Part shown: positions 1 through 64,000 of the stretch, one piece after another
Layout of the letters: every line of letters starts with the position of its first letter
Position numbering within the stretch: the stretch's first letter is position 1
Assembly: GCF_009827055.1 (NCBI RefSeq)
Contig: NZ_WUMK01000014.1
Location: forward strand, 29,405 to 93,404
Length of the DNA stretch: 64,000 bases
Reading direction: 5' to 3'
From: Shinella kummerowiae
GTDB lineage: Bacteria; Pseudomonadota; Alphaproteobacteria; Rhizobiales; Rhizobiaceae
Program-made: the position numbers and the translations under genes
Notes under the pieces: generated by a model
What the model saw: the letters and a program-made list of their open reading frames with translations, nothing else
The model's database searches: none
Told to the model about the DNA's origin: nothing

Positions 1-92
1 TGGAGGACATTGCTCCTGCGAGGGTCGGAGGAGCCTCAAGTCAGATTGTGGCGCATTGCCGCCAGGACTCGATCAAACGGAGGAGGAAAACA

Positions 93-1403: not shown

Positions 1404-1470
1404 GGATCGCGGTGTCCCGTCGCGCACCCTCCCAGACGCGACGGGAACTTTGACAGGAAGAGACATTGGA

Positions 1471-9963: not shown

Positions 9964-10689
9964 ATGTCGACAGTGCAGGCCGCCGCGACCGTCATGATCG
10001 TGGATGACGACCCGGCGCTTGGAGCGATGATATCGGAATATCTGACGGGGCAGGGCATGGTTGCCCTGCCGGTCGCAACCGGCCGCGAGATGCTGAAGAT
10101 ACTGGAGACGAGGACGCTCGACCTCGTGCTGCTCGATCTGCAATTGAAGAACGAGGATGGGCTCGACGTGCTGCGCGAGCTGCGCCAGCGGTCCGACGTG
10201 CCGGTCATCATTGCCACCGGCCACCGCAAGGACGAGATCGACCGTGTGGTCGGCCTTGAACTGGGCGCCGACGACTATGTCACGAAGCCGTTCGGTCTGC
10301 GCGAACTGCTCGCGCGCATCAGGGCCGTGCTGCGGCGGCATGCAAGTGACTATTCGCATCGCAAGAACAGCGGCCTCACCTACCATTTCGGCGGGTGGAA
10401 ACTTCGCGCCAAGACGCGAGAACTGTTCGATCCGCACGGCGAAACCATTCCGCTGACGAAGGGGGAGCATGCATTGCTGGTCGCCTTTCTGGACGCCCCG
10501 CAGCGCACGCTGGCACGCGAACACCTTTTGCAGGCAACGCGCATCCACGAGGATATCTTCGACCGGAGCATCGACGTGCAGATCCTGCGGCTGCGCCGGA
10601 AGCTCGAGGCCGATTCCAGCGCACCGAGCATGATCGTCACCGAACGGGGGCTTGGCTATGTCTTCACGCTGCCTGTCGAGCGTTACTGA
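9964..10689 (+). CDS. VirG-like response regulator (OmpR/PhoB class)
   Basis: Two-component response regulator of 241 residues, the usual VirG length. The receiver domain holds the acidic pair VDDD, the phosphoacceptor Asp in VLLDLQLKNEDG and the conserved KPFG lysine. The winged-helix output ends in DRSIDVQILRLRRKLEADSS and TERGLGYVF, which closely resembles Agrobacterium VirG as I recall it. GAGGGA precedes the ATG at 9964; the frame is open to 9877. It is followed, overlapping by about 30 bp, by a di-heme protein gene and then a VirA-like kinase, so all three should be co-expressed. Whether it drives the vir genes of this window is inferred, not shown: I found no clear vir box near them. 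Confidence 0.85.
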   Translation: MSTVQAAATVMIVDDDPALGAMISEYLTGQGMVALPVATGREMLKILETRTLDLVLLDLQLKNEDGLDVLRELRQRSDVPVIIATGHRKDEIDRVVGLELGADDYVTKPFGLRELLARIRAVLRRHASDYSHRKNSGLTYHFGGWKLRAKTRELFDPHGETIPLTKGEHALLVAFLDAPQRTLAREHLLQATRIHEDIFDRSIDVQILRLRRKLEADSSAPSMIVTERGLGYVFTLPVERY

Positions 10690-11623
10690 ACGGCGCCGTC
10701 GTCCCGCGACCCCGTGGCTTGGCGCCGCATTCGCCGTGGCAGCCCTCTGTACCAGCGCGGCGCTGTCGGCCGCCGCCGGCACGGACGAACCGATCAGTGT
10801 GGTGAAAGCCTTGGCAATCGAGCCATCGAAAGTGGCGCTGGGCAAGGTCCTGTTCAACGACCCGCGGCTGTCCGGCGACGGCGCGCGCAGCTGCGCCACC
10901 TGTCACGACATCGAGACGAACGGCGCCTCCGGCGCCCGCTTCGACCGCTCGCCGGAGGGGGCTGCGCTCGAATTCAACACGCCCACGGTTTTCAATGCCG
11001 CCCTGAGCTTCCGCCTGAACTGGGAAGGAAACTTCTCGGTGCTGCAGGATCACGCCCGGTCGCTGATCAGCAACCCGAACGTCATGGGCGGCACGATGGA
11101 GACGATCGTGCAGGCGCTCGGCGCCGATCCCGCCATCCGTGACCTTGTCGAAACGGCTTACGGCGCACCGCTCGACGAAACCAACCTGGTGGATGCCCTT
11201 GCCGCCTACCAAAGGTCCCTCGTGCTCGTCGACAGCCCCTTCGACCGATGGCTCGCCGGCGATGCAAACGCTTTGACGGAAGCGGAAAAACAGGGCTATC
11301 GGCGTTTCAAGGCGGTCGGCTGTGCCGCCTGTCATCAGGGGCGCAATGTGGGGGGAAATCTCTACCAGCGCCACGGCATCTTCCACCCGCTAACCTCCGG
11401 CGGCCCCGCACGCGTGCGCGTGCCGAGCCTGCGCACGGTCTACTATACGCCGCCCTATTTCCATGATGGCAGCGCCGAGACGCTGGACGAGGCGATCCGC
11501 GCGATGGGCCGGGCGCAGCTCGACGTCATTCTCGACGAGGACGACGTCCGCAACATCGCGGCGTTTCTCAAGTCCCTCACCGGCAGCCATGCGGGAAAAT
11601 CCCTGCGGAAGGCGGCGCCATGA
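10658..11623 (+). CDS. Di-heme cytochrome c peroxidase/MauG-like protein
   Basis: Periplasmic c-type cytochrome of 321 residues. A hydrophobic N-terminus (WLGAAFAVAALCTSAALSAAA) should act as export signal. Two heme-binding CxxCH motifs are present, SCATCH and GCAACH, with the peroxidase-like spacing and the region TPTVFNAALSFRLNWEG. The family reduces peroxide or modifies protein side chains. The gene overlaps the end of the VirG-like gene and the start of the VirA-like gene (ATGA), so it belongs to the signalling unit. It may pass a redox signal to the periplasmic part of the kinase (inference). Confidence 0.85.
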   Translation: MSSRCLSSVTERRRRPATPWLGAAFAVAALCTSAALSAAAGTDEPISVVKALAIEPSKVALGKVLFNDPRLSGDGARSCATCHDIETNGASGARFDRSPEGAALEFNTPTVFNAALSFRLNWEGNFSVLQDHARSLISNPNVMGGTMETIVQALGADPAIRDLVETAYGAPLDETNLVDALAAYQRSLVLVDSPFDRWLAGDANALTEAEKQGYRRFKAVGCAACHQGRNVGGNLYQRHGIFHPLTSGGPARVRVPSLRTVYYTPPYFHDGSAETLDEAIRAMGRAQLDVILDEDDVRNIAAFLKSLTGSHAGKSLRKAAP

Positions 11624-36822: not shown

Positions 36823-37241
36823 GATAGCTTTCGTTGACGCAAGAGGTCTGCTTCCGCTTTAGGCGCAAGCAAATCGATGTTTGCGAGCACCAACCTGAAC
36901 GCAGCAACGGCTCGAATGGGCGTTGAAAGGATTGAAGCCTACGGGATTCCAGCCCTGTCCAGCCAAGCGGCAGGATCGCTTTAGCCGGCTGCGGCATAAG
37001 ACCCGATTATCGAACTTCCGATATCGCGCGGCTCTAAATTTGGATTGCGTAATTTGCCCCTGCCAGCGGGCCATGGTAGTTTGATCGCATAGTTCATGCC
37101 ATTTTTGAGTGCAGATATTTATTGATTGCCGCTTGGCCGGACGCGTTGCCACAATGCGAAGCACGCCAGGCGAACTATTGAATTTCATGACGTTTGTTCG
37201 TCCGGCCTCAGCGCTGGATGGCCCATCCATAAGGTGTGCTC
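36823..37241. promoter_or_regulatory. Intergenic region upstream of the candidate effector gene
   Basis: About 420 bp between divergent mntH and the 37,242 gene. I looked for a vir box (TNCAATTGAAAY) and saw none with a good match. A GGCAGGATCGCTTTA word at 36,969 resembles a border core only weakly. Confidence 0.4.
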
Positions 37242-38807
37242 ATGTCCGGTTTTCCGAACGTTTCAGCAGCAGACTATCTCGATACTGCCATTCGCAACGC
37301 CTCCAACCTGGTTGTTTCCGGGAAAAGAGGCCTTGAGCGGCGCACCAACGCGTGCAGGCAACCGCTCTCGCCAAGCCACGAAAGAATAGAAAAGGCGGTT
37401 GATGCGGCACTGGGTGACTTCATCCCCGCACATGAAGTCTACAATGATATGCGCAGGGCCGCCCTGGAAGCGATCATCGACAATCACCTGTACAAGGCGG
37501 ATCCGGTCACAGATCGCGTAAGGCTGGAATCGGTGGCGCAGACAATCCAGGCCAAGCAGCCGCGCTTCCGCAATCCGGGCAAGGAGCAAACAGTCGAACC
37601 GGCACTGATCGCCGGTCTCTACCGGCAGGTAAAGGATCTCCCGCCCTTCGCGCTGGCTGGCCATCGCTGGGAGCAAACAAAACTTGACGGAAACACGGCC
37701 GGAACAGTCCGCGGCCATGAGTCACCGGCAATGATCCTTGCCAACCCCATCAGCAACGCCATCATGCCGGCGAGCCCGTACTACAACGACCTGCGCCAGA
37801 CGTTCTTTGATCTTGTGCGCACGAAAGGGGCGGCAGTCAAAAACTGGCTCCAGGAAGAAGCCAGGATTCGCGAAGAAAAGCGCAAGCCGGGTGCGCCGCG
37901 CTTCATCAAGAACGAATTCTTCTATCACAACAAGAATGCAATCGAGGACTTCGACAAGCTCCTGTTGCCTCACAAAAAGGCGTTCGAGGCTGAAATTCCG
38001 CCATCAAAGCCGATCAGTCCGGAAGCGCTGGTCCGCATCGGCAGATTGATGGTGGCCCACCACCGCAGCTGGGTTCCGATACGCATCCCGCCACAGGACG
38101 GCCAGCCGATTGCCAAGATCCCCCGGCTGAACTTACGCGACACGACGAATTCCGTACCGGACAAGGTTCCGCCGGGCATTGCCGAAGCCTCGAGGCATTT
38201 TCAGCCGGACATCGCCGCCGACCGGCCGAAAGCTATCGGTTTCAGGGATCGGCTGGTCGAACAGATCGATTCCATCCTGCCCCCAACCGCCAGCAACTTC
38301 AGCAAACGGCTGCAGCTGGGAAAGAGGATTTTTGCCGCCCGCGAAAAAATGCTGTCCGCAAACTCGGCCGAACAAGCCTATCGGGCTGCCCTGGGCAATC
38401 CGGACGCCAAGAAGAACGAAGCGACCAGCCAGCACCAGCAAACCATCCGCGACATGGCCGAGACCTGCGAGCGCTTCGTGGCCGCCTACGAGGGCAGAGA
38501 TCCCGGATTCGGGCTCGACGCGGAAAGCGCCGGGCCGGCCGCACCGGTCAGACGCCTTGGCAAGCAACGGATGACGGCCAATCTGAACGGCCTGAAGAAG
38601 GCTGGAGCCGATGAACAACAGTTGCCGATCGCAGCCTTCTTCACATCGACGAAAAGGTCTCGCGCCGAAATGGAAAGCCAAACAGGTGAGCCGGCAACGA
38701 AATCGCCCGGGCGACCGCAGGCCGAGACCGCCGGCACCCCATCGCTGAAAAAGCCTGCGCTGCTGGACCTCCGCTCCCGCGAGGATGAACGCGGCCTCAG
38801 ACGCTGA
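37242..38807 (+). CDS. Unrecognised large protein, candidate VirD4-dependent effector
   Basis: Protein of 521 residues with no signal peptide or membrane segment. The N-terminal two thirds are mostly α-helical and contain RRAALEAIIDNHLYKADPV, PYYNDLRQTFFDLVRTKGAAVKNWL and ALVRIGRLMVAHHRSWVPIRIP. The last 100 residues are low-complexity, with a basic KRSRAEME and the tail LLDLRSREDERGLRR. An Arg-rich, hydrophilic C-terminus is the known form of VirB/D4 transport signals, and two proteins of the virD operon end in a similar LD-x-R tail. The gene converges with virC2, 34 bp apart. The ATG at 37242 follows AAGGTG. No family recognised; the effector role is inferred from tail and position. Confidence 0.7.
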   Translation: MSGFPNVSAADYLDTAIRNASNLVVSGKRGLERRTNACRQPLSPSHERIEKAVDAALGDFIPAHEVYNDMRRAALEAIIDNHLYKADPVTDRVRLESVAQTIQAKQPRFRNPGKEQTVEPALIAGLYRQVKDLPPFALAGHRWEQTKLDGNTAGTVRGHESPAMILANPISNAIMPASPYYNDLRQTFFDLVRTKGAAVKNWLQEEARIREEKRKPGAPRFIKNEFFYHNKNAIEDFDKLLLPHKKAFEAEIPPSKPISPEALVRIGRLMVAHHRSWVPIRIPPQDGQPIAKIPRLNLRDTTNSVPDKVPPGIAEASRHFQPDIAADRPKAIGFRDRLVEQIDSILPPTASNFSKRLQLGKRIFAAREKMLSANSAEQAYRAALGNPDAKKNEATSQHQQTIRDMAETCERFVAAYEGRDPGFGLDAESAGPAAPVRRLGKQRMTANLNGLKKAGADEQQLPIAAFFTSTKRSRAEMESQTGEPATKSPGRPQAETAGTPSLKKPALLDLRSREDERGLRR

Positions 38808-38841: not shown

Positions 38842-39633
38842 TTACTGATGCTGCGCCTGAATTTCGAAGAAGATGGCAAGTGCGGCTGAAGCGAGCTTGC
38901 GCCCGAATGCACGGTCGCTCTCGAACCCGAGCGGATCGAAATGCGCGCGCGCCCTTTCGATGAGCCTTAGCGGCATGATCCGCGACGTCTGGATGATGCC
39001 GCAGACTTCCGGCGCGACCGCCTCGGTATAGGTCTCCGGCAGATTGTCGAGATCGCCGTTTTCCAGCAGCACCTCATAATCGTCCAGTGCGCGGCGCAGG
39101 ATCATCTGCAGCGATTTCGCCGGCGCATATTGCCGGCACAGGCGTTCGAAGCTTTTCGATATGCCTCTGGCCGGCAGGGCTGCCGAGAGGAACACCTGGA
39201 TCTTGCCTTCCTCGCTGCGCTTGCCGATCACCTGCTGCTTTTGCCGCTTGGCGATTGGCCGGCCAATGTCGGGAGCCGCCTTTCTTGATTTCTTCTCGGC
39301 CGATTTCCGGCGCGAGCTCGTGTCTGCTTGAGACACTTGCGGTGGTGACACTTCCGCCGTCATCGCGACCGGTTCAGGCCCCGGGCTTTCCACCGGATGA
39401 ACCTCCGCCAGCGGGTCCGCCTCCGGTTTGGGGGTGGGCGGAAGAGGAATATCTACCGCGACGGATGCGATGGTTGTCGCGGCAACAGGCACGTCTTCCG
39501 TATGCGGACGCGGCTGCAAAGCCGATGGATCGCGCACGGGATCGTGCGGCGTCACGGAAGGCAGCAGATCCGACCGGTGAGCGGCCAGACTCCGCGCCTC
39601 CTTGACGGAAAGCACAGGTTTGCGGATTGCCAC
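38842..39633 (-). CDS. virC2: VirC2
   Basis: Protein of 263 residues. The N-terminus MAIRKPVLSVKEARSLA and the C-terminal domain (IQVFLSAALPARGISKSFERLCRQYAPAKSLQMILRRALDDYEVLL... IIQTSRIMPLRLIERARAHFDPLGFESDRAFGRKLASAALAIFF) match Agrobacterium VirC2. The C-terminal part forms a ribbon-helix-helix DNA-binding fold and, with VirC1, promotes T-strand production at overdrive. It is about 60 residues longer than the Ti protein (about 202) owing to a Pro/Ser/Glu-rich linker at about 40-130. It starts 1 bp after the virC1 stop, so the two are one operon. Confidence 0.93.
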   Translation of the reverse strand: MAIRKPVLSVKEARSLAAHRSDLLPSVTPHDPVRDPSALQPRPHTEDVPVAATTIASVAVDIPLPPTPKPEADPLAEVHPVESPGPEPVAMTAEVSPPQVSQADTSSRRKSAEKKSRKAAPDIGRPIAKRQKQQVIGKRSEEGKIQVFLSAALPARGISKSFERLCRQYAPAKSLQMILRRALDDYEVLLENGDLDNLPETYTEAVAPEVCGIIQTSRIMPLRLIERARAHFDPLGFESDRAFGRKLASAALAIFFEIQAQHQ

Positions 39634-39634: not shown

Positions 39635-40330
39635 TCAGCCTCCCAGCTTCAGGTCCACAAAGCTGCGCATGACGTGGAGCTCATCCATGGCGGTGGCATA
39701 GTTGCGCATGGGCAGGCGCAACGCCGCCTTGCCCTCCATATTGGCGAGGGCAAGATGCATCATGCCCCGCTCCTTCATCGCCGCGAACGCGTCACGCTCA
39801 TGCATCGGCTTGTCGAATTGCGGCAACACATTCAGAAGGTCCGAAGAGGCCTTCTGCGATGACGTCAGCCGGCCGACGGGGATGCGCTGGACCAATATGG
39901 CCGTCGGGATGTCGATGGCCTCATTGACGAGCAACTCGATAATGTAGCGGTAGGTTGCCAGTGCTTCGTCGATGTCGAGCGGCGTCAGCATGGAAGGAAC
40001 CAGCAAAAAGTCGGAACTGGCGATGATCGTATTGTTCAGCTCGCTTGAGCCGCCATGCGTATCGGCCAGCGCAAAATCAAAACCCTGCTTCTCCGCACCG
40101 TTGTAGGCAGCCTCCAGAAGCCCGATGTCGTCGGCAGCAAAGACCTCGCAGGTCTCGTCCCATGTATCGCTCTTGAGGGCGTTCTCCTTCCACTTGCTCA
40201 GCGGCCGGTTTTCGTCCGCCTCAAACAGCGCAACGCGGTAGCCGAGCGAAGCCCAGGCGGAGCACAATCCCATCAATGCAGTGGTTTTACCGGCGCCGCC
40301 CTTGAACGAGCAGCAAGTCACGAGTTTCAC
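39635..40330 (-). CDS. virC1: VirC1, ParA-like T-strand processing factor
   Basis: ParA/MinD-type ATPase of 231 residues, the same length as Agrobacterium VirC1. The Walker A is [13 protein letters not shown] (residues 9-21), then [39 protein letters not shown] and [16 protein letters not shown], all near-identical to VirC1 as known. VirC1 binds overdrive next to the right border and brings the VirD2 relaxosome to the cell pole (established knowledge). The start is GTG at 40330, after AAGGAT. The presence of an overdrive-like sequence at 62.8 kb fits this role. Confidence 0.96.
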
Positions 40331-40619: not shown

Positions 40620-41081
40620 ATGACCGATAATTCCGGCGTCCTCGACGCTTTTGCTACCGTTTCCCGTACCCAGCGCCTCCCGAAAAAGATTGATCCTGCC
40701 GGTTACAAGGTTGTGAGCGTTCGCCTGCGCGAGGGCGAATTTGCCACCCTTGCACGCCAGGCAGCCAAATGCGGCATGAGCAACAACATGGCGTTGAGAG
40801 TTGCCGCGCGGCGCATCGCCGGTTTCATCGAAATCGATGCCGCCACCCGCGAGGCGCTGCAGTCCATTTCCACCCGCATCGGCGAAATCTCCTCCAGCAT
40901 CCGGCGCATCAGCCATCTGGCTCCGGGCCGCCCTGGCTTCGACATGGAGCAGTTCATGAAGGACCGGGCCGCCTTCGGGCGGGAGTTCGTCGAACTCGAC
41001 GGTCACCTGCGCTCGCTGCTCAGCCTGTCGAAGCGCCGCATCGATGGATGCGCGCTGCTTCTCGACGAGGCCTCAGATTGA
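40620..41081 (+). CDS. virD1: VirD1, relaxase accessory protein
   Basis: Protein of 153 residues, close to the 147 of Ti VirD1. Diagnostic stretches are DPAGYKVVSVRLREGEFATLARQAAKCGMSNNMALRVAARRIAGFIE and FVELDGHLRSLLSLSKRR, which match VirD1. It helps VirD2 nick the border on supercoiled DNA and probably binds DNA through a ribbon-helix-helix-like N-terminal part. It is the first gene of the virD operon, 12 bp before virD2. Confidence 0.95.
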   Translation: MTDNSGVLDAFATVSRTQRLPKKIDPAGYKVVSVRLREGEFATLARQAAKCGMSNNMALRVAARRIAGFIEIDAATREALQSISTRIGEISSSIRRISHLAPGRPGFDMEQFMKDRAAFGREFVELDGHLRSLLSLSKRRIDGCALLLDEASD

Positions 41082-41093: not shown

Positions 41094-42404
41094 ATGTCCG
41101 CAAACGCACCCGGCATTCGCCCCCAGGCCATCGTCAAGGTGGTGCCGCGCGGCGGCACGGTCAATGCGCACCAGATCCGCCGCCAGATCTGTTACATCAC
41201 CCGCAATGGCACCATCCCGTTCCGCCGCTCCGACCGCTATCTTGATGCAGCACCCGCAGGGATAGACGAATTCGACCGCATCTCTGTCGACTGGGCCCGT
41301 CATGCAGCCCGCTATCCACTGCGCAACCGCGCTGATGGCACGCAGCGCGACCTCACCACACATATCGTGGTCAGCCTTCCGCGCAACACGCCGCACCAGC
41401 TCGCGGAAGAGACGATGCGTGACTACGCCTATGAAATGTTCGGGTCGGGACGCAACGGCGGCCAATGGGATTATTTCACAGCCTTCCACACCGACCGCGA
41501 ACATCCCCACCTGCACATCGTCGTCAACCGCATGTCGCACGAGGGCCGCTGGCTGAAGATTTCCCGGCGTGATCCGTTCATGAACTATGACAACATGCGC
41601 GCCGTGATGTCCGACGTCGCACATTCCCGCGGCATCAATCTGGATTCCACCTCTCGCGCCGAGCGCGGCATCATCGAGCGTCCCGTTACGTTTGCCGAAT
41701 ATCGCCGCCGCGCCCGCGACCGGATTTTCCTCTATCCGCAGCCCACGAACAACACGCCGGTCGAGCCGGATGCCATCATCGGACCAAGCCGGACCGGCGC
41801 AATCCATCGGCGCAATGCTGCCGAACACGGCATTGCCGAACGCGCGGCAGCCATTCAGCGCGGCTTCGTCAATGGACAGGATTTCCAGGCTGCCCGCCAG
41901 CGTGGCCGCGACATTGCCGCCGCAGCCGCAGCCCGCGCCCGCCAGCTTTTCCCCGACCCGCAGGATGATCTTGACGATGATTTCGGCGGCGGCGGTGGCG
42001 ACAATAACGGTGACGATGATCCGGATGATGATGACGCAGGTGCGAACAACAATGGCGGCCCGGCCGGGAACGGAAATGGTCAGAACAACAATGGCCAAGG
42101 CCAGGGTCAGAACGGCCAGGCCCGCCGCCAGCGCGCGCCGCAGCAGCGCAGCATCATCGAAACCCGCGCCCAGCGCCGGGTCCGCGAACAGCAGGAGGCT
42201 GCCCGCGCACGGGTGGATGAACAGCGCCGGGCGCGCGCGGAGCAGGCCCGCGAGGCCGAGCGGCGCCGCCAGGCAAGAGAAGCTGCACCGGTCGCCCGCA
42301 CCCGCGCCCAACAGCGGGAGCTCGATACGTTGAACCTGCGCTCCGGCACGCGCATCGACCGCACCGGACGGGGGCGCACCAACCGCAATGATCACGACCG
42401 GTAG
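41094..42404 (+). CDS. virD2: VirD2, border-specific relaxase
   Basis: Relaxase of 436 residues that nicks the T-DNA border and stays bound to the 5' end of the T-strand. The catalytic Tyr is Y34 in RRQICYITRNG; the metal motif is HTDREHPHLHIVVNR (H132, D134, H139, H141); and WLKISRRDPFMNYDNMR with SRAERGIIERPVTFAEYRR completes the family. Residues 280-345 are an unusual linker rich in Asp, Gly, Asn and Gln. The C-terminal tail is Arg-rich (RAEQAREAERRRQ, GRGRTNRN) and lacks the Lys-Arg bipartite signal of Ti VirD2, yet it keeps many arginines that could serve secretion or nuclear import. A border to act on lies at 62.8 kb. Confidence 0.96.
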   Translation: MSANAPGIRPQAIVKVVPRGGTVNAHQIRRQICYITRNGTIPFRRSDRYLDAAPAGIDEFDRISVDWARHAARYPLRNRADGTQRDLTTHIVVSLPRNTPHQLAEETMRDYAYEMFGSGRNGGQWDYFTAFHTDREHPHLHIVVNRMSHEGRWLKISRRDPFMNYDNMRAVMSDVAHSRGINLDSTSRAERGIIERPVTFAEYRRRARDRIFLYPQPTNNTPVEPDAIIGPSRTGAIHRRNAAEHGIAERAAAIQRGFVNGQDFQAARQRGRDIAAAAAARARQLFPDPQDDLDDDFGGGGGDNNGDDDPDDDDAGANNNGGPAGNGNGQNNNGQGQGQNGQARRQRAPQQRSIIETRAQRRVREQQEAARARVDEQRRARAEQAREAERRRQAREAAPVARTRAQQRELDTLNLRSGTRIDRTGRGRTNRNDHDR

Positions 42405-42438: not shown

Positions 42439-45400
42439 ATGCCGAATTTGAATGAATTTGAAGAAGCAGAACGCAGACGAATTTCAGAACATGAATTGTT
42501 TAATTCAGAGGATGACGAAATCATGCCAAAGGCAGAAAAAAAGGCCCGCACCGCAACCCGTGAAACCCCTTATCAAAGGGAAAAGGCGCGACTGGAGAAA
42601 GAGAAAGCCGAGCAGGCCGAAAAGACCCGCGTGCAGAACAACAGCCGCGCTGCCCGTGCCGCACGCCGGGCAGGTCAGATGGAGGGCGTAGAGGCTACTC
42701 CGCAGCCGCCTGTCGAACCTGCACCGCAGGCCCGGGAAACCGCACGGCAGGCAAATGCCGCCGACGAAGCGCGGCGTATGGAGGCTGCGCTGCAAGAGCA
42801 GATCGCCCGCGACAATGCTGTCCGGGATGAGCGCCGGGCTTCGACAGCCCCTGGCATTGAAATGGATCATGATGCCGATATCGCCGCCCAGTTCGCGGCA
42901 GACTTGGCTGCCGCCGACGTTCGGGCGCGGGAAGCACAGCGTTCCTCCCCAGACATTGACGAGCATGCGATCCAGGAAGAGCTGGACCGGCAACTCCAGG
43001 AAACGGTCGCATCTGAAGCGACGCAGGCGCAGGCCCGTGCGGACAATTTGCGCCTTCGGGAACTGGAAGCGGAAAACCAGGCCCTGCGCAAAGCAGCCGA
43101 AACGGCAAATCAGGAAAGGCTGGATGCAGTCTCCGAGCGCATGGCGGAAACCACACGCGCCGATGATGCAACCGCGGCAAGCCAGCAGCTCGCCAAGCAG
43201 CTCAGCCAATCCAACTTTGAACGGGAATTCGCCGTCAAGCGTGCACAGGATCTCGAAGCCGGCAATGCCGAATTGACAGTTCGCCAATCCGAGCTGGAAC
43301 GCCAGTCCGACACGACGATCGCCATGGGCAAGACCAGCATCGAAGCGGCAAACCGCGCCCGTCAGGACGCCGAAACCCGCGTCAGCCGGCTGGAAGGCGA
43401 CAACCAGGTTTTGCGCCGTGAACGCGACGAAGCCGTGAAGACTGTCGGAGAGCGGGATCAGCAGCTTGCCCAGGCTGGGGCCCGCAATGAAGCTCTGGCC
43501 AGATCGCAGGCAGCGGCGAAGCAGGCTTCCGATTTGCGGATAGCTGATCTGGAACGCCGCAACCTCGAACTGGTCAGTACAGCGACACAGGCTGATCTAA
43601 GCGCCACCACAGAGAAAGCAAACCGCGAGGCGACCGAACGCGAGCTTGTCAAACGTGATGGCGAACTCAGGACAAACAAGGAGAGCCTAGCTGCTGAAAA
43701 AGCCGCGCGCCAGCAGGCTGATGCACGAGCTGGTGATCTCGACGACAAGCTGAAAGCCGCCAATGAAGCTGCGGCCCGCGAGAAGGCGGGTCGCGAGGCG
43801 GCGGAAAGAGAAGCCGCCAGCCAGAAGAAGCTCGTTGGCGAACTGTCCGGCGAAGGTGACAAGGCCAAGGCTCTGGAAACTGCGCGCCGCGATGCAGAGA
43901 CAAAGGCCAAGGATCTTGAAAGCAAACTGCAGTCGGCAATCGAGGAAGCCGCGCGCGAGAAAGTGGGTCGCGAGGCAGCGGAGAGAGAAGCCGCCAGCCA
44001 GAAAAAGCTCGTCGGCGAACTGTCCGGTGAAGGTAACAAGGCCAGGGCTCTTGAAACGGCGCGCCGCGACGCAGAAGCAAAAGCCAAGGGTCTTGAAAGC
44101 AAACTGCAGTCGGCAACCGAGGAAGCCCAGCGTGAAAAGGCTGCCCGTGAAGCGTCTGAGAAGAATGCGCAGGACCTGATCGCCAAGAATGATCAACTGA
44201 CAACCCAGGCGAAGGAGGCCACGCAAGCTCTTGTCCAGACCGAAGAACGGTTGAAGACGATGCGTGACCATGACGGTGATTCCGAATTGCGAAAGCAACT
44301 CGAGCAGGAGAAAGACGCACGCCAGGCTGCCGAAGCGAAACTGGCCGCCACCACCGAGCGCATGATCGATCAATCCAAGGCCGCCGCCACGGCACGGCGG
44401 AACGAAACGCAACAGGCGGCGCGTGATGCCGAACGCATCGTCCGCCTTGAAGCCGAGTTGAAGACCGCACGGGAAACGCCCGACCCGGACAAACCCATCC
44501 CCAGCGTCGAAAAAGATGAAACGGGCAAAAATACCGGCCGTGCTGCAACGGCGGCCAAGGACGACGAGTTTGGCCTGGACGATATCAGTAATGCGGACTT
44601 CGATGCAGCGGTCGCCGCCGCCGAGGCAAAGCAGAAGCAAGCGGCAGCGGCGAAGGCCAAGGACGATGAATTCGGCCTGGACGATATCAGCGTTGCGGAG
44701 TTCGATGCGGCGGTGGCCGCCGCCGAGGCTTCACGGAGCACTCCGGCGCCCGCCTCGCGCGAAGGCTCGCCCGCGCTGGATCCGGCCCATACGGTCAAGG
44801 GCAATGTCTGGTACCGCGCCGGCAAGATGTATGTGCCGGAAGCGCAATACGACAAGATGCTGAAGGCCGGTGTCAAAGTTCCGCTGCAAACGGACAAGCC
44901 TGCCCGGGAGGTTCTTCTACAGACCCCCAATGGTGATCTGCATTCCCCGAAAGCGTATAAAAGTGCCCATGGCGCAGCCGCTTTCGAAGCGCGCGCGAAA
45001 GCCGAAGGGCTTGATCCGAAGATTGCCGCCAAATGGGCAGCCAAGGATCAGACCCGCCCGGAAGTTCTGGTGAGACTGAAGAACGGTAATCTTGTCGATG
45101 GCAAGAGCCTGGAAATCGCAGCCGGCAAGGCAGGACTCGCAGGCAAATTCGGCGAAAAGAATGTCTTCATCGAAAACCAGACGACGAAGATCGAAAACGG
45201 CCGGGAGATCAAAAGTGGCACCGGCAACTATCGCCGCGCCGACAATGCCATCGAGCATGCGCGCGCCGCCGGTAGCACAGTAAAGCTTAACCAGCGGCTC
45301 GACACCATGCGCGTCAGCCCGCAGCCGGAAGGCCGCGCCTCACGCAGTGCAACGCCGGCATCCAACCTCAGCACGAACCGCAACGCTTCGCCTTCGACAC

Positions 45401-45804
45401 GCGGCACGACACCAGAACGGGCTGCACCGCCCGCCCAGCAGCGCAAGCCGATCTTCCGCAACGGAAAGGTGGTCGCAAGCGTGCCGGTAAATGGCAACAA
45501 TGGCGGCGTCAAGCGGTTGAACCAGCGCCCTGCGACCGTCCAACCCCGGCAGAATGCTCAGGCCGACAATCGCTACGATCGTGGCGGCAGTCAGCCACCC
45601 GCACCGGGCTACCAGCGGCCCGACCAGGGCGGCGCGCACAACCGCCAGACCAGTCCAACGACCACCATCAACCTCACCGTCAACGGTGCGGTCGGGCACG
45701 GCACAGCGACGCCCAATGTCGCCGCCAATGCCCCGTCGCAGACCAAATATTCACCCAAACTCGATGACCGCCCCCGGACACCAGATCCGCTCGAACGCAA
45801 CTGA
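42439..45804 (+). CDS. Giant coiled-coil protein between virD2 and virD4, candidate effector
   Basis: Unrecognised protein of 1,121 residues. Residues about 30-740 are a long Ala/Glu/Lys/Arg coiled coil with two near-identical 59-residue repeats (period 177 bp, starting at 43,777 and 43,954). Two copies of KDDEFGLDDIS with a 34-residue period follow (44,557 and 44,659). A globular part comes next (NVWYRAGKMYVPEAQYDKMLKAG... EVLVRLKNGNLVDGKSLEIAAGKAGLAGKFGEKNVF), then a Pro/Arg/Asn-rich tail ending KLDDRPRTPDPLERN. The hydrophilic, Arg-containing C-terminus resembles VirD4 transport signals. No family recognised; Ti plasmids have no such gene between virD2 and virD4. It sits 34 bp after virD2. 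It could bind DNA, stiffen the T-strand or act in the host cell (speculation). Confidence 0.8.
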   Translation: MPNLNEFEEAERRRISEHELFNSEDDEIMPKAEKKARTATRETPYQREKARLEKEKAEQAEKTRVQNNSRAARAARRAGQMEGVEATPQPPVEPAPQARETARQANAADEARRMEAALQEQIARDNAVRDERRASTAPGIEMDHDADIAAQFAADLAAADVRAREAQRSSPDIDEHAIQEELDRQLQETVASEATQAQARADNLRLRELEAENQALRKAAETANQERLDAVSERMAETTRADDATAASQQLAKQLSQSNFEREFAVKRAQDLEAGNAELTVRQSELERQSDTTIAMGKTSIEAANRARQDAETRVSRLEGDNQVLRRERDEAVKTVGERDQQLAQAGARNEALARSQAAAKQASDLRIADLERRNLELVSTATQADLSATTEKANREATERELVKRDGELRTNKESLAAEKAARQQADARAGDLDDKLKAANEAAAREKAGREAAEREAASQKKLVGELSGEGDKAKALETARRDAETKAKDLESKLQSAIEEAAREKVGREAAEREAASQKKLVGELSGEGNKARALETARRDAEAKAKGLESKLQSATEEAQREKAAREASEKNAQDLIAKNDQLTTQAKEATQALVQTEERLKTMRDHDGDSELRKQLEQEKDARQAAEAKLAATTERMIDQSKAAATARRNETQQAARDAERIVRLEAELKTARETPDPDKPIPSVEKDETGKNTGRAATAAKDDEFGLDDISNADFDAAVAAAEAKQKQAAAAKAKDDEFGLDDISVAEFDAAVAAAEASRSTPAPASREGSPALDPAHTVKGNVWYRAGKMYVPEAQYDKMLKAGVKVPLQTDKPAREVLLQTPNGDLHSPKAYKSAHGAAAFEARAKAEGLDPKIAAKWAAKDQTRPEVLVRLKNGNLVDGKSLEIAAGKAGLAGKFGEKNVFIENQTTKIENGREIKSGTGNYRRADNAIEHARAAGSTVKLNQRLDTMRVSPQPEGRASRSATPASNLSTNRNASPSTRGTTPERAAPPAQQRKPIFRNGKVVASVPVNGNNGGVKRLNQRPATVQPRQNAQADNRYDRGGSQPPAPGYQRPDQGGAHNRQTSPTTTINLTVNGAVGHGTATPNVAANAPSQTKYSPKLDDRPRTPDPLERN

Positions 45805-45838: not shown

Positions 45839-47359
45839 ATGTCAGACGCATCCGATGCGGCCCCGGTGGCCAACAAAAAACCGAAAACCAGCAAGCGGGA
45901 AAAACTTGCCGCTCGCGAGGCGAAGAAGACTGAAAAGAGCAAAACAAGAAAGGCGGAGCGCACCGAGAAGAAAGCCGATGGCTGGGAGCGCAAAGGTCGC
46001 AATTCCAATGGCCAGAAAGCGTATGACTTCAACAGCAACACTGCCAACGGCAGTTTTGTCGCCTTCGATGAAAACACCGTCAACGCTTCAAGGCGCGTGA
46101 AAGGCGCCTACAAGGAAGAGATTGCCCGCAACATGGATACGGGCGATGCCGCCCGTTCGCGATCCTGGGCCGGCGGTATCAAGCGCAAGACCGAGTACAC
46201 CGAAGAACGGGTCGACAAGGAAACCGGCCAGCTTGAAGACGTTCGCACCCGCAAGGAAAAGCAGAATTTCGCCGCGAGCAAGAATATCGACTACAAGGAG
46301 AACGGCGCCAAGACCATCGAGCGCGGCACCCGCAAGGGCATGTTCTCGATCACGTACACCAACAATCCAGATGGCAGCCGTTCGTTCAGCGGCTTCAAGA
46401 TCGGGCCCTTCAAAATCAACCGATCAAAGGGCGAAAATGGCGCAAAATCCTTCGAGGTCAGCTTCGGCAAATCCTTGTCCTATTCGACCTTGACCGAAGC
46501 GAACGGCAACAGGACACGAAACTACAATATCGGCAACATCTACGCGAACTCCACCACCGTAAATTCAAAAGGCGAGCTTGTCCGTTCGGAAAAGACCTAT
46601 TTTGGAAGGCGTACCAAGACCATCGAAAACACAGCGGACGGGTCGACCAAATACACGACCAAGGGCCGCAGCGTGAATGAGATGAAGCGCGACGGCCTTG
46701 ATGAAAACCAGATCAAGGACGCGATCAACGAGGATATCGCTGCTGGTAAGGTCTACAGGCTGAAGCGCACCAATGAACGCGGCGAGGTCACGCGCGACTA
46801 CAATCGCCAGACCTACAAGGGCAAGACATCCGACTACATTGCCGGCGACAGGGATACGAACGATGTTTCGCGGAAGTCCAGCGGGTGGGGCCTGAGCAAA
46901 ACAAGCTCGCAAACGCTTTCCAGCGAACAGCGCGCCGCCCGCAACGAGCGGCAAGAGCAGCTTGAACTGGAATCGATAACCTCCTCGACACCCGGAGCCT
47001 TCCCGTCCGATCTTAGCCCTGCCGACAGGAGGATGAACCGCAACGCCTCTGCTTCGTCCAAGGTCGCCCAGGTCAAGGGTGTGGCCGATGCCAAGGGCAC
47101 TGATGCGAAGTCGGTAAGCTCGGCAGCATCGGACAAGAGTTCAATCGCCTCATTCGCCACCGCTGCGGGCAATTCCGTCAGAAGCATGGTTTCGGGCAAG
47201 GGATCTATCGACTCGTCTGCCACATCCAAGACAGCACACAGCAATGCCTCCTACTCAAGCACGGCAACGACAGCGACCGCGAACTCGCAGACCAAGTTGC
47301 AGGCCAAGCTCGACGAGCGTTCGCGCGGCCGCGAAACGCCCAGCGTATCGATGGAGTGA
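45839..47359 (+). CDS. Unrecognised basic protein between virD2 and virD4, candidate effector
   Basis: Protein of 506 residues. The N-terminus is very basic (KKPKTSKREKLAAREAKKTEK...KTRKAERTEKKADG), like a nuclear localisation signal. Residues 60-340 hold repeated strand-like stretches (FNSNTANGSFVAFDENTVNASRR, MFSITYTNNPDGSRSFSGFKIGPFKINRSKG, TTVNSKGELVRSEKTYFGRR). The last 130 residues are Ser/Ala-rich low complexity ending KLDERSRGRETPSVSME. That tail resembles the Arg-Ser-rich end of Ti VirE2. AAGGAG precedes the ATG and the gene is 34 bp after the coiled-coil gene and 15 bp before virD4. No family recognised; a host-nucleus effector is inferred from tail, basic start and operon. Confidence 0.8.
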   Translation: MSDASDAAPVANKKPKTSKREKLAAREAKKTEKSKTRKAERTEKKADGWERKGRNSNGQKAYDFNSNTANGSFVAFDENTVNASRRVKGAYKEEIARNMDTGDAARSRSWAGGIKRKTEYTEERVDKETGQLEDVRTRKEKQNFAASKNIDYKENGAKTIERGTRKGMFSITYTNNPDGSRSFSGFKIGPFKINRSKGENGAKSFEVSFGKSLSYSTLTEANGNRTRNYNIGNIYANSTTVNSKGELVRSEKTYFGRRTKTIENTADGSTKYTTKGRSVNEMKRDGLDENQIKDAINEDIAAGKVYRLKRTNERGEVTRDYNRQTYKGKTSDYIAGDRDTNDVSRKSSGWGLSKTSSQTLSSEQRAARNERQEQLELESITSSTPGAFPSDLSPADRRMNRNASASSKVAQVKGVADAKGTDAKSVSSAASDKSSIASFATAAGNSVRSMVSGKGSIDSSATSKTAHSNASYSSTATTATANSQTKLQAKLDERSRGRETPSVSME

Positions 47360-47374: not shown

Positions 47375-49393
47375 ATGAACCAGACCAACGACAACAGGCT
47401 GACGACGCTCGTCTTCGCCGTCATGCTTTCGCTCGTCCTCGGGCTGTTGCTCTCAAGCGGCTATGTGACGTTCCGTGATGGATTCGACACCTATGCGCTG
47501 AAAAACTTCAGCCTGTTGGCTGCCTGGCAGGAAACCCCGTTCGTGGCCGGTTATGTCACGGATGCCTTCATAACCTGCTTGAAAATCCTCGCCGGTTCTG
47601 CCGTTGCCACCACCGCGGTCGTCTTCGCCATCCTCTACCTGAGGGGCGGCGATCACCACGGCACGGCGCGCTGGGGCAGCTATTCCGAGCTTGCCCGCGC
47701 CGGCTATATCCGGCGCTACCACAAAGTCTCCGGCCCGATCTTCGGCAAGACCACCAGTCCGAAGCGCCGCGGCAAATACCTCACCAATGGCGACCAGCCA
47801 CATTCGCTCGTCGTTGCTCCGACCCGCGCCGGCAAGGGCGTCGGCGTCGTCGTGCCGACATTGCTCACCTTCAATGGCTCGATCCTTGCCCTCGACGTCA
47901 AGGGCGAACTGTTCGAGTTGACGTCGCGCTCGCGCCTGGCGCGCGGCGACCGGGTTTTCAAGTTCTCGCCGCTTGACCGCGAAGGGCGCACCAACAGCTA
48001 CAATCCGATCCTCGACATCGTGAAGCTGCCGCCGGAACGCCGCTTTGCTGAAACCCGCCGCCTCGCCGTCAACCTGCTTGTCCCCAAGGGCAAGGGTTCG
48101 GAAGGCTTCATCGACGGCGCGCGCGATCTGTTCGTCGCCGGTGTGCTCGCCTGCATCGAGCGCGGAAACCCAACCATTGGCGCCGTCTATGACCTCTACA
48201 CGCTGCCTGGCGAGAAATACAAACTGTTCGCCCAGCTTGCCGAGGAAAGCGAGGTGCCGGAGGTCAAGCGTATCTTCAACAACATGGCGGGCAATGACAC
48301 CAAGATCATCACTTCGTACACGTCGGTGCTGGGCGATGGCGGCCTGAACCTCTGGGCCGATCCGCTGATCAAGGCAGCGACCACGACGTCGGACTTTTCG
48401 ATCTACGACCTGCGCCGCGATCCCACCTCCATCTTCCTCGTCGTCTCACCGAACGACCTTGAAGTCATCGCACCGCTGGTGCGCCTTTTCTTCCAGCAGG
48501 TTGTTGCCGTCCTGCAGCGCGAGATGCCCAAGGAAGATGAAATCTTTGAGGTCCTGTTCCTGCTGGACGAATTCAAGCATCTGGGCAAGCTCGAATCCAT
48601 CGAAACGGCCGTGACCACGATTGCCGGCTACAAGGGCCGCTTCATGTTCATTATCCAGTCGCTCGCTGCGCTCACCGGTGCCTATGAGGCATCGGGCAAG
48701 GAAAACTTCCTGTCCAACACCGGCGTGCAGGTCTTCATGGCCACGGCCGATGATGAAACGCCGCAATACATTTCCAAGGCCATCGGCGACTATTCCTACA
48801 AGGCCAAATCCGTCTCGTGGAACCAGACCGAAATATTCAAGGCGAACATCCAGAAGTCCGAGCAGGGCGCAACACTCATCCGGCCCGAACAGATCCGCCT
48901 CCTCGACGACCAGACCCAGATCGTCCTCGTCAAGGGCAAGCCGCCACTGATGATGCCCAAGGTCAAGTATTACGAGGATCGCATACTCAAGACGCTGTTC
49001 GACAGCCAGACCGGGCCCCTGCCCGAGCCGGAACCGCTGAAGGCTGTCACCGAGCCCGCCTCGTTCCTCGCGGCATTGACCGGAGAGGAGCCGGCAAAGC
49101 GCGGTTCGGCTCATGATCCGAACGATCTGCAAATGGACCAGGAGCCGGAAAACGAGATCCGCATTCAGCCACAGGCCGAGCAGATCCAGGCAGCGTTCGA
49201 AGCGGAAGATTTCGCCGATGCGCACGACGATGTTCAGGAATTGCAACAGCAACGCATCGCGCGCGAAGCCTTGCAGCAGCCGGAGTTCGAAGACGAGCCG
49301 CAGATCGAGTATGAAAAAACCGCGCAGCAGGCCCTTCTTGAGCGCATCATCGCTGTACAGGAGCGCAACCGTGCCCAGGGTATTAGCCGGTAG
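47375..49393 (+). CDS. virD4: VirD4, type IV secretion coupling protein
   Basis: Inner-membrane ATPase of 672 residues (Ti VirD4 is 668) that hands VirD2-DNA and effectors to the VirB channel. Two N-terminal membrane segments (TLVFAVMLSLVLGLLL and ILAGSAVATTAVVFAILYL) are followed by the Walker A APTRAGKGVG (about 148-157) and Walker B VLFLLDEFKHLGKLE. The stretches DVKGELFELTSR, GARDLFVAGVL, NDTKIITSYTSVLGDGGLNLWADPL and FLSNTGVQVFMATADDETPQYISKAIGDY are close to Ti VirD4. It closes the virD operon. No virB genes are present in this window, so the channel genes must lie elsewhere. Confidence 0.97.
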   Translation: MNQTNDNRLTTLVFAVMLSLVLGLLLSSGYVTFRDGFDTYALKNFSLLAAWQETPFVAGYVTDAFITCLKILAGSAVATTAVVFAILYLRGGDHHGTARWGSYSELARAGYIRRYHKVSGPIFGKTTSPKRRGKYLTNGDQPHSLVVAPTRAGKGVGVVVPTLLTFNGSILALDVKGELFELTSRSRLARGDRVFKFSPLDREGRTNSYNPILDIVKLPPERRFAETRRLAVNLLVPKGKGSEGFIDGARDLFVAGVLACIERGNPTIGAVYDLYTLPGEKYKLFAQLAEESEVPEVKRIFNNMAGNDTKIITSYTSVLGDGGLNLWADPLIKAATTTSDFSIYDLRRDPTSIFLVVSPNDLEVIAPLVRLFFQQVVAVLQREMPKEDEIFEVLFLLDEFKHLGKLESIETAVTTIAGYKGRFMFIIQSLAALTGAYEASGKENFLSNTGVQVFMATADDETPQYISKAIGDYSYKAKSVSWNQTEIFKANIQKSEQGATLIRPEQIRLLDDQTQIVLVKGKPPLMMPKVKYYEDRILKTLFDSQTGPLPEPEPLKAVTEPASFLAALTGEEPAKRGSAHDPNDLQMDQEPENEIRIQPQAEQIQAAFEAEDFADAHDDVQELQQQRIAREALQQPEFEDEPQIEYEKTAQQALLERIIAVQERNRAQGISR

Positions 49394-58831: not shown

Positions 58832-58834
58832 CCC

Positions 58835-62785: not shown

Positions 62786-62809
62786 GAGACGAACAAACGC
62801 ACAAACTTA
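62786..62809 (-). promoter_or_regulatory. Overdrive-like T-DNA transmission enhancer
   Basis: Read on the minus strand it starts TAAGTTTGTGCG and continues TTTGTTCGTCTC. Aligned without gaps to the known octopine overdrive (which starts TAAGTCGCTG and ends GTTTGTTTG) it agrees at 16 of 24 positions, with TAAGT and GTTTGTT kept. It lies 4 bp outside the border on the side expected for a right border. VirC1, encoded at 39.6 kb, is the overdrive-binding protein. Confidence 0.7.
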
Positions 62810-62813
62810 TTTA

Positions 62814-62838
62814 GTTTACATCTCCATATATCCTGCCC
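62814..62838 (-). promoter_or_regulatory. T-DNA right border repeat
   Basis: The plus strand reads GTTTACA, then TCTCC, then ATATATCCTGCCC. The minus strand therefore starts GGGCAGGATATAT and ends GATGTAAAC. Compared with the 25-bp nopaline left border (TGGCAGGATATATT...TGTAAAC), 21 of 25 positions agree, and the mismatches fall at the first base and in the known variable middle. The nick made by VirD2 would be after the third base (minus strand), between 62,836 and 62,835. Orientation plus overdrive position place the transferred DNA at higher coordinates, making this the right border. No second border is seen in the window. Confidence 0.88.
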
Positions 62839-63624
62839 TCCCCCAAAAAAGAGGTTAGCGGCCGGGCGGCTCTTCCTCCCATTCTCAGAAAGGAAGGTCG
62901 GAAGGCCCAGCCGGAAGCTACGAAAACGATGCGCAGGCCTAAACTCCGGCTCCACCCTCTATCGCCTTGAGAGAGAAAAGAGGAATGAAGCGGGTGGGCG
63001 ATGGCCATCTCCCCATAAGCTGATCTCGACGAGAACGAGGGGGCAGTGCAATCACGCCATGGCTGCGCCAAGCCAATAGTGGGGTTTCATTCCGGAAGGA
63101 TCGGGGCTGAGCTCAAGGGTGCGTCAGCAACCAGGCAGCCATGATGACACGCGGTCAGCTCGTATTCCTCGCATCGCCGATCGCCTGCATTCGACCCAAC
63201 CACCGTATTCCCAATGGAGAAGTCCGAAACATTGTTGGCGTCAGCTGAAAGGCCACGTCAGCTGCACTGCCCGGATGCCACCCGTTCCGACTTGGCGAGA
63301 AAGGGCGATAACGGGAAAGCCAATGAGAATGCGCCAGCGACGCACGAGGCACCCACCCAATTTCCGATGACCCACCATGGCGTTTCGGATGTTCGGACAT
63401 CCGGTGCACAGCCCCCTTTCATGGAAAGGGATGGAAGACGATGGATGCTGATCGCAGGGCGCTGAGGAAAACATAAATACGAGCGCTTTCCCTCTCACTT
63501 TCCTGCTCCTCATCACTCTCACCCTCACCACCTTCAGCACTTCCACAGCAACTCCCAAGTACTTTCCAGTTTTCCAATCATCTTTGTTTCTCACCAAACA
63601 CTCATCCCCCCAAAAACCACCAAC
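62839..63624 (+). promoter_or_regulatory. Eukaryote-type (fungus-like) promoter and 5' leader inside the T-DNA
   Basis: Plus-strand CCAAT boxes occur at 63073-63077, 63211-63215, 63320-63324 and 63357-63361. A direct repeat CGTCAGCTG is at 63239-63247 and 63256-63264 (containing the TGACG word on the other strand), and CGGATGT / ACATCCG arms occur at 63386-63403. ATAAATA is at 63473-63479. After it the leader 63486-63624 (139 bases) holds only six G, with CT-rich and then CA-rich text, a pattern typical of highly expressed fungal genes. No Shine-Dalgarno sequence precedes the ATG at 63,625. No bacterial gene is seen in this stretch. Confidence 0.7.
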
Positions 63625-64000
63625 ATGTCTTACCCCAAGATGCAGCCGCTCCAGTCGGTCGCCCGCATGATCCATCCGGATGCCAACTATGCGGAGCTCC
63701 TCACGAAGTTTGCGGCCGTCGACCCCACTCCCGAGGCCCAAGTCAAGTTTTGTGCCGAGCAGCTCGGCGGCGGCGCCACGATCGGGCTCATGCAGGCCTT
63801 CCACCAGGGCCTCAACCTCACCGAGCGTGGCCGCGAGGCTCTCAAGCTCATCCTCACCTGCGAGGCCGGCCGCAAGAAGACGGGCGTCGCCCTTAAGTTG
63901 AACCGCACCCCCGGCATGCTGGTCACCGACCCCACTTTGGCGCTCCTCCCCAGTTCCTCCGTCCTGACCTATGACGACGTCGAAAAGGTCAAGTCGACTG
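63625..64000 (+). CDS. Unrecognised eukaryote-type gene in the T-DNA (partial, 5' end)
   Basis: Open frame of 125 codons with no stop, cut by the window end. It starts MSYPKMQPLQSVARMIHPD and continues ANYAELLTKFAAVDPTPEA, then QLGGGATIGLMQAFHQGLN, EAGRKKTGVALKLNRTPGM and TYDDVEKVKST. The start context is CCAACATGTC with A at -3 and no ribosome-binding site. Codons strongly prefer C in the third position (GAC, CTC, AAG, GTC, GCC), as in filamentous fungi. It does not resemble known T-DNA genes (ipt, iaaM, iaaH, rol/plast, opine synthases) as far as I can tell. A domain cannot be named. No intron is evident so far. Possible roles are host-cell growth control or opine-like synthesis, but neither is supported. 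Confidence 0.7.
   Translation, partial: MSYPKMQPLQSVARMIHPDANYAELLTKFAAVDPTPEAQVKFCAEQLGGGATIGLMQAFHQGLNLTERGREALKLILTCEAGRKKTGVALKLNRTPGMLVTDPTLALLPSSSVLTYDDVEKVKST

Follow-up and report, generated by a model that had tools for sequence, protein, structure and literature searches.

A border-like repeat beside an overdrive-like sequence, on a plasmid segment of Shinella kummerowiae that also carries virC and virD genes, raises the question of whether this plasmid encodes a set for T-DNA transfer and, if so, for which recipient that T-DNA is made. Natural T-DNA transfer is known from bacterium to plant, and transfer to fungi is known as a laboratory technique. The stretch of DNA analyzed here, 64,000 nucleotides long and hereafter called the window, comprises positions 29405 to 93404 of contig C6, with its right edge at the contig end, in a 6.34-Mb genome of 41 contigs (G000).

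Plasmid context and closure of the contig

C6 is a 93,404-bp plasmid on which family searches recognized repABC and a topoisomerase gene. A database protein of 923 amino acids (P0001) is 96% identical to the protein encoded in the window's T-DNA; its residues 1 to 125 align to C6:93029-93403 and its residues 127 to 923 to C6:3-2393. Since the identity is only 96%, P0001 is a separate sequence, and since its alignment spans both contig ends, we conclude that C6 is circular and closes at the contig end and start. The T-DNA crosses this linearization point, and its telomere-type array is placed beyond window position 64,000. An assembly join near 62.6 to 62.8 kb, which the original prediction had named as a possible undoing, is unlikely, given that P0001 runs full length across the C6 ends.

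Borders, overdrive, and extent of the T-DNA

The right border lies at 62814..62838 on the minus strand. It matches the core pattern CAGGATATATN6GTAAAC with 0 mismatches at 62,814-62,835 (-), compared with a mean of 0.01 in shuffles, and this is the sole match in the window even when up to 3 mismatches are allowed. The full 25-mer agrees with the reference border TGGCAGGATATATTGTGGTGTAAAC at 21 of 25 positions and with TGACAGGATATATTGGCGGGTAAAC at 18 of 25. Outside the border, an overdrive-like element (62786..62813, minus strand) agrees with a reference overdrive at 16 of 24 positions; the score is obtained at both 62,786 and 62,790 (-), is the highest in the 64 kb, and was reached in 15 of 1000 cases when the adjoining 100 bp on the outer side of the border were shuffled. 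The original prediction of a border with an intact core and 21/25 agreement, flanked directly on its outside by a 16/24 overdrive-like sequence, was thus borne out for both elements. The words GTTTGT/TTTGTT, which were picked post hoc or from the reference overdrive, occur outside 6/6 right borders examined versus 0/6 left borders (one left border with 41 readable nt). From established VirD2 chemistry, we take the VirD2 nick to fall after 62,835, presumably cutting within the border after TATATCCTG, with the plus strand from 62,836 rightwards as the T-strand.

A second border in the same orientation, which had been proposed as something to look for beyond 64,000, is present at C6:2795-2816, on the same strand as the right border and with 3 mismatches to the strict pattern, all in the GTAAAC end. 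Together with the nick at 62,836, this left border gives a predicted T-DNA of 3,981 bp that contains a single large open reading frame. Its first 1,165 bp occupy 62836..64000 (+) of the window, and it continues through C6:1-2816 (L009) with the rest of the reading frame, the array, and a hairpin left border. Apart from three on C6, the border-like matches in the genome (3 mismatches) were rejected as further borders, being at the level of a reversed-pattern control (9 in total versus 7).

Telomere-type array and hairpin at the left border

Ahead of the left border, C6:2581-2681 consists of 16 TTAGAG/TTAGGG units plus one partial unit, and the hairpin left border (C6:2686-2816) lies between this array and the predicted nick. 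Starting 4 nt past the array is an inverted border copy to which the final 25 nt of the predicted T-strand are complementary, and this pairing stops exactly at the predicted cut (CCTG-3'; z = -10.4, with 0 of 200 shuffles as stable). The left border of Rhizobium etli 8C-3 has a similar hairpin with its final 4 nt unpaired (z = -10.0), as does a partly seen A. arsenijevicii T-DNA with its final few nt unpaired (z = -8.7); the left border of A. arsenijevicii T-DNA II, when folded, has no such hairpin (z = -0.5). An Rfam search of 55,000-64,000 gave no match. The C6 T-DNA lacks telomere-type units on the right, which we count against our best reading, and with an array at the left end only, it does not have the outward arrays at both ends expected of a linear minichromosome. 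A separate A. arsenijevicii stretch (L029 1-434) holds the end of another reading frame, whose product has a Glu-rich C-terminus, together with a hairpin left border that lacks TTAGGG; it is apparently a second T-DNA.

TTAGGG arrays at T-DNA borders in other genomes

Nine clear arrays were found at the borders of 7 T-DNAs in 4 genomes, and in 9/9 cases the G-rich strand runs outward, as in a telomere. They adjoin the C6 left border, a left border of A. arsenijevicii KFB 330, six borders of a genome from another genus of the same family (G067), and one left border of a further genome of this family (G489). Spacing was measured for the arrays other than that of G489: in 4 of the 5 left borders exactly 23 nt separate the end of the array from the nick, and in 3/3 right borders the array begins 4 to 10 nt after it. 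In C6 the distance is 140 nt because the hairpin lies in between.

The pattern also proved rare. TTAGGGx4 with at most 1 mismatch occurred in 3 of 394 genomes of the family (G000, G067, and G280), with 0 for the reversed pattern, and the listed matches in G000 and G067 are at borders. The G280 tract, which is degenerate and G-rich and has no border within the 8 kb read, was rejected as a further case. When 60 genomes related to G067 were screened for exact TTAGGGx4, the pattern was present in G067 itself and in one new genome, G489, whose array lies 8 nt from a left border and points outward; this genome was found by the telomere pattern alone. Of the two new genomes found by the array alone, therefore, G489 fits and G280 does not (1/2). 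The G489 T-DNA carries two genes 97% identical to G067 genes and is adjoined by a ROK regulator and a sugar importer, and a decayed CCCTAATTCTAACCC stands just past its right border.

Of the G067 T-DNAs, A (C61) and D (C65) carry arrays on either side; B is tipped on the left and C on the right, the extents of these last two resting on borders that we assigned. The 923-aa family is absent from G067, and the cargo there includes a dehydrogenase-like protein (ApbA; E = 0.07, below cut-off), a GDPD-like protein (E = 7.5e-4, below cut-off), and an MmgE/PrpD protein (4.7e-46); a plasmid search with two of the cargo proteins gave no useful result. On contig_54 of KFB 330, a right border, an 889-aa relative of the 923-aa protein, four TTAGGG units, and a left border lie within 3.6 kb. 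A. arsenijevicii has TTAGGGx3 at the left border only.

Arrays do not accompany every T-DNA. None was seen in 40 kb of G037, which has T-DNA borders together with canonical VirD2 and VirE2 and lacks TTAGGGx4 throughout its genome, in the 33.75 kb read of Mesorhizobium mediterraneum R31, which has T-DNA borders and a RolB gene, or in 40.7 kb around virD2 on four other plasmids. The R. etli 8C-3 T-DNA, which carries a member of the 923-aa family, has no array either, and this we count against our best reading. Single border matches with 1 mismatch in G010, G048, G059, and G101 were set aside as near the control level (two control matches in 151 genomes). On the M. mediterraneum R31 plasmid (L063), which comes from a chickpea nodule and carries vir genes, three border matches in one direction lie at 16941, 18564, and 20615, and one pair of them flanks a gene annotated as RolB family.

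The T-DNA gene and its promoter anatomy

The T-DNA gene begins in the window with the N-terminal 125 codons of the 923-aa protein (63625..64000, plus strand), and the rest lies at C6:1-2396. Upstream are a TATA-like box, CATAAATAC, at 63472..63480 (+), of a kind that precedes, by 250 nt or less, 2 of the 59 other genes called on the plasmid, and a CT-rich, G-poor leader at 63481..63624 (+) without a Shine-Dalgarno sequence. The last 100 nt of this leader have a G fraction of 0.05, versus a median of 0.30 and a minimum of 0.14 for the 59 other called C6 genes. The same anatomy recurs in other T-DNAs. Across the seven better-supported T-DNA genes, a set that leaves out three doubtful genes (137, 177, and 140 aa) and a 631-aa row, leader G ranges from 0.05 to 0.15 over the last 100 nt (6/7 below the C6 minimum of 0.14), the best Shine-Dalgarno score is 1 to 2 of 6 in 7/7 (median for the 59 C6 genes, 4), and a strict TATA motif stands upstream of 6/7 versus 2/59 C6 genes. 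Promoters of filamentous fungi have this appearance, a TATA box and a CT-rich leader.

A further element, TGACGTGG, lies upstream of the T-DNA gene at 63253..63260 (-) and is common to other T-DNAs, with 18 sites in 30,966 bp of T-DNA (6/7 T-DNAs) versus 11 in 212,734 bp outside, an 11-fold enrichment of a motif that was picked post hoc after inspection of the sequences. Codon usage was rejected as a T-DNA mark because it fails to separate T-DNA genes from plasmid genes. The NCC/NCG codon ratio is 2.03 in the 923-aa reading frame, versus a median of 0.93 and a maximum of 1.95 for the 59 other C6 genes, and is not used as evidence here because the other T-DNA rows span 0.75 to 1.95.

The protein family itself is an orphan, consisting of six database proteins, two named loci, and the window's own copy, and a profile search with the family returned the same six proteins. 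A Pfam search with P0001 gave no match above cut-off, and the C6 T-DNA contains no recognized oncogene or hormone gene. PDB searches found no relative of the family, the predicted structure of the 923-aa protein (pLDDT 44.7) was unusable, and searches of viral contigs gave no useful result. With neither a Pfam match, nor a PDB relative, nor a usable structure, calling the protein a synthase rests on the cassette that adjoins the family's genes. The reading frames of the eight relatives seen are intact (866 to 969 aa). The R. etli T-DNA protein is 34% and the A. arsenijevicii protein 49% identical to P0001.

Occurrence of the family and an accompanying candidate uptake cassette

The 923-aa family occurred once in 72,556 plasmid records, on R. 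etli 8C-3 pRsp8C3a. Among 21 genomes of the genus to which the window belongs, 1 had the protein, namely, the window's own. A scan of named genomes with the alignment of the 923-aa protein gave 28 pattern matches, of which 1 was confirmed (KFB 330 contig_54).

In each of the three loci examined (3/3), the family is accompanied by five genes, which encode a GDSL hydrolase, a ROK regulator, a sugar-binding protein, and two permeases. On C6, the hydrolase and regulator genes are at C6:26897-29318, just before the window, and the sugar-type ABC importer (binding protein and two permeases, by Pfam) is at 3..3152 (+). The five cassette genes are 82 to 92% identical between R. etli and C6 and 72 to 93% between R. 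etli and A. arsenijevicii. The end of the cassette adjoins the right border in R. etli and A. arsenijevicii, and on C6 about 24 kb separate it from the left border. By analogy with opine systems, the cassette is a candidate catabolic set for the T-DNA product, and the pairing would follow opine logic, in which a host-expressed gene is matched by a bacterial meal. A sugar ester as product would suit the GDSL hydrolase.

Transfer genes on C6

The genes for processing and export of a T-strand are clustered at 38,842-49,393, in agreement with the claim that VirC1, VirC2, VirD1, VirD2, and VirD4 are encoded 13 to 24 kb from the border, with VirD1 and VirD2 below their equivalog cut-offs. VirC2 (38842..39633, minus strand) matches the Pfam VirC2 family at 1.3e-43, and VirC1 (39635..40330, minus strand) matches its Pfam family at 3e-113 and its NCBIfam model at 384 bits (cut-off, 313). 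VirD1 is the plus-strand reading frame at 40620..41081 (NCBIfam VirD1, 2.3e-47 and 160.7 bits, just under the equivalog cut-off of 173); a minus-strand frame at 40,605-41,006 was rejected as VirD1, having no family match. The VirD2 relaxase (41094..42404, plus strand) is diverged, scoring 224 bits (4.8e-66) with the NCBIfam VirD2 model, whose equivalog cut-off is 623, and is 49.8% identical to Agrobacterium VirD2 over residues 9 to 208. VirD4, the coupling protein (47375..49393, plus strand), reaches 1016 bits (NCBIfam VirD4; cut-off, 681).

A VirG-like response regulator (9877..10689, plus strand; best NCBIfam model VirG, 246 bits; cut-off, 344) and a VirA-like sensor kinase with a DAHL domain (11620..14058, plus strand; 553.6 bits; cut-off, 647) enclose a MauG/di-heme peroxidase-like gene (10652..11623, plus strand), as on R. 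etli pRsp8C3a; the MauG-like protein possibly has a role in sensing host signals. Its MauG/cytochrome c peroxidase-like counterparts, the gene on pRsp8C3a and a 45% relative in G067, were seen at L066 48388-49362 and L050 3446-4312.

The original prediction had proposed a search for virB1 to virB11 and virE, and had named the absence of a left border and of virB genes as its refutation; both tests came out in its favor. On C6 are eight virB-type genes (a B1-like transglycosylase, B2, B3, B4, B8, B9, B10, and B11; called by Pfam domain or NCBIfam matches, several under NCBIfam cut-offs). No gene there could be assigned to B5, B6, or B7, and VirE2 (PF07229) had 0 matches in the whole genome. The broader claim, that one plasmid holds a T-DNA transfer set, is supported, in that borders, overdrive, VirC, VirD, and VirD4 all lie on circular C6; so is the claim that this does not look like a known Ti or Ri plasmid, as the T-DNA gene matches no known T-DNA gene family. 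With VirD1 and VirD2 under their equivalog cut-offs and VirE2 not found, C6 represents a diverged system.

In a tree of 11 VirD2 relaxase domains, from which the G489 protein (204.7 bits) was left out, the VirD2 proteins of R. etli 8C-3 and G067 and the second VirD2 of A. arsenijevicii group in a single clade (100/100). Outside it falls the VirD2 of the window, on a long branch whose placement is unsure; the telomere trait is therefore not tied to one VirD2 lineage, or else the placement is wrong. In addition to that second VirD2, A. arsenijevicii KFB 330 encodes a VirD2 of canonical Ti type (838 bits) and VirE2. The C1 and C3 contigs of KFB 330 (G467) hold two VirD2 genes and two VirE2 matches, that is, a canonical set and a diverged set.

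Three orphan proteins sit among the vir genes without a Pfam or NCBIfam match: one of 523 aa beside virC (37236..38807, plus strand) and two between virD2 and virD4, of 1121 aa (42439..45804, plus strand) and 506 aa (45839..47359, plus strand). The 1121-aa protein is, from its position, a candidate secreted protein, and all three have arginine-bearing C-termini and, by position and look, are candidate VirD4-dependent secreted proteins. Neither the 523-aa nor the 1121-aa protein matched an R. etli protein suspected to be VirE2-like.

Comparison with known systems

C6 shares with Agrobacterium Ti and Ri plasmids direct borders, an overdrive, VirA- and VirG-like genes, VirC1/VirC2, putative VirD1/VirD2, VirD4, a putative VirB-type channel, and repABC, and its cargo is apparently paired with a catabolic cassette, as in those plasmids. 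It differs from them in a T-DNA of one orphan gene with no recognized oncogene, in the TTAGGG array and hairpin at the left border, in a eukaryote-like promoter of fungal look, in its diverged VirD2, and in the VirE2 that was not found. We therefore regard C6 as a T-DNA plasmid of Ti-like anatomy that, as far as tested, is not tumor inducing.

The plasmid pRsp8C3a of R. etli 8C-3 (NZ_CP017242.1) likewise has a 923-aa-family protein in a bordered segment (labeled a hypothetical protein in the record), the GDSL/ROK/ABC cassette, a hairpin left border, and the VirG-MauG-VirA order; unlike C6, it lacks a TTAGGG array, its borders are weaker, and its protein is 34% identical to P0001. In R. etli CFN42, the vir genes of p42a move the T-DNA of a binary vector into plants, and the authors report that looking for borders and T-DNA genes of its own revealed no significant similarity (PMC4788154). 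That plasmid resembles C6 in having vir genes in a Rhizobium-type bacterium and differs in the borders, for which its authors found no match (PMC4788154). The plasmid pTiCFBP4996 of A. leguminum has a small oncogene-free T-DNA with opine genes (PMC8756689); unlike C6, it has an annotated VirE2 and no TTAGGG array in the 40.7 kb around virD2, a stretch that excludes its T-DNA. Filamentous fungi can maintain plasmids that bear two telomeres, which replicate there as minichromosomes without a centromere (PMC7451986). The pTEL construct used in Botrytis resembles C6 in being a gene cassette with telomere ends and becomes a linear fungal minichromosome; it is man-made and was transformed into protoplasts as a plasmid, whereas C6 is natural and has one array, at a T-DNA border (for pTEL, PMC7451986).

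Proposed recipient and fate of the T-DNA

We propose that C6 is probably a natural T-DNA system for bringing one opine-like synthesis gene into a eukaryote with TTAGGG telomeres, a filamentous fungus being the likeliest recipient. Most fungi and many animals have telomeres built of TTAGGG, and most plants have TTTAGGG instead. The array and the fungal-looking promoter anatomy point to a non-plant host, which the original prediction had not considered; that TTAGGG is not exclusive to fungi counts against a specifically fungal one. The VirD1 and VirD2 scores under cut-off, the lack of matches to VirE2 and of assignable virB5, virB6, and virB7, the VirD2 branch outside the shared clade, the orphan nature of the 923-aa family, the borderless G280 tract, and codon usage also weigh against our reading.

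In such a system, VirD1 and VirD2, aided by VirC1 and VirC2 at the overdrive, would nick the border at 62,836 and free the plus strand, which VirD4 and the VirB channel would export with VirD2 on its 5' end. The T-strand would end at C6:2795-2816, where fold-back of its last 25 nt could prime a second strand across the array. Once in the host, the outward G-rich repeat might seed a telomere: a one-ended array, as on C6, could cap a broken or captured chromosome end, and arrays at both ends, as in two G067 T-DNAs, could yield a linear minichromosome. Host RNA polymerase II would read the T-DNA gene from its TATA-like, CT-rich promoter, and the product would return to the bacterium through the GDSL-hydrolase and sugar ABC-importer cassette.

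Array-border T-DNAs occur in at least four genomes, one strain having a classic Ti-type vir set as well. As to whether Rhizobium- and Agrobacterium-type soil bacteria in general naturally transform fungi, with telomere-tipped T-DNAs that become capped ends or linear minichromosomes, opine-like synthases under fungal promoters, and a matching uptake cassette, we consider the case for this fungal counterpart of crown gall evenly poised. If it holds, natural interkingdom transformation would widen to a second kingdom, T-DNA would have a second fate (capping or a minichromosome instead of random insertion), and T-DNA enzymes with their bacterial uptake cassettes would form testable pairs. No natural T-DNA with telomeres or directed at fungi was among the matches listed in a literature search (e.g., the best 20 of 185), which is weak evidence, as preprints and most subscription journals were outside its scope.

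Other explanations deserve consideration. That this is an oncogene-free, opine-type T-DNA for plants, with TTAGGG arrays that serve plants or nothing, seems unlikely: 0/9 arrays are of the TTTAGGG type of most plants, and the plant-type, border-bearing G037 and M. mediterraneum R31 (in the 33.75 kb read) are without arrays. In its favor, the named relatives have plant origins, R. etli 8C-3 coming from Phaseolus vulgaris and A. arsenijevicii having been described from crown gall tumors, according to a title cited in PMC8756689. An oncogene-free T-DNA exists on pTiCFBP4996 (PMC8756689), and KFB 330 has a canonical Ti-type VirD2 and VirE2. A distinctly unlikely alternative is that the arrays are not telomere seeds and that C-rich 5' and G-rich 3' ends form a panhandle or quadruplex protecting or circularizing the T-strand. 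The both-ended arrays of two G067 T-DNAs are indeed complementary within one strand, and (TTAGGG)n forms quadruplexes. One-ended arrays leave little for this idea, as 4 of the 7 T-DNAs with arrays are tipped at one end only and a fifth, that of G489, shows just a decayed trace at the other, and a generic structural role would not demand the exact eukaryotic hexamer seen in four genomes.

The borders and vir genes might instead be a relic that serves only plasmid conjugation or protein export, T-DNA transfer having been lost. The diverged VirD2 and the VirE2 that was not found would suit such decay, and VirB/D4 protein export is discussed for R. etli (PMC4788154); set against the intact frames of 866 to 969 aa in eight relatives, the exact array-border spacing, and a hairpin exact to the nick, we find this reading very improbable. 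An assembly artifact or fungal contamination joined to a bacterial contig is hardly credible, even with arrays and promoters that look fungal and a window cut inside the T-DNA, given that the same array-border design lies beside bacterial genes in four separately assembled genomes and that P0001 is full length. A T-DNA addressed to a TTAGGG eukaryote remains our preferred reading of C6.

Other genes in the window

Beyond the transfer genes, a reading frame at 16997-24847 (+) encodes an adhesin-like protein of 2616 aa with 22 putative Ig (He_PIG) stretches. Next to it, at 15111-16828 (-), are neighboring reading frames of ~180 aa, two of which have similar starts (PF-GEI--FGFA---GW--C-G) and which we take to resemble phage tail-collar proteins. 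Metabolic genes, including LamB/YcsF, occupy 50512-54903 and 58835-62528 beside the right border, where other reading frames presumably encode biotin carboxylase-like and aldehyde/xanthine oxidase-like proteins; these genes are possible further catabolic cargo.
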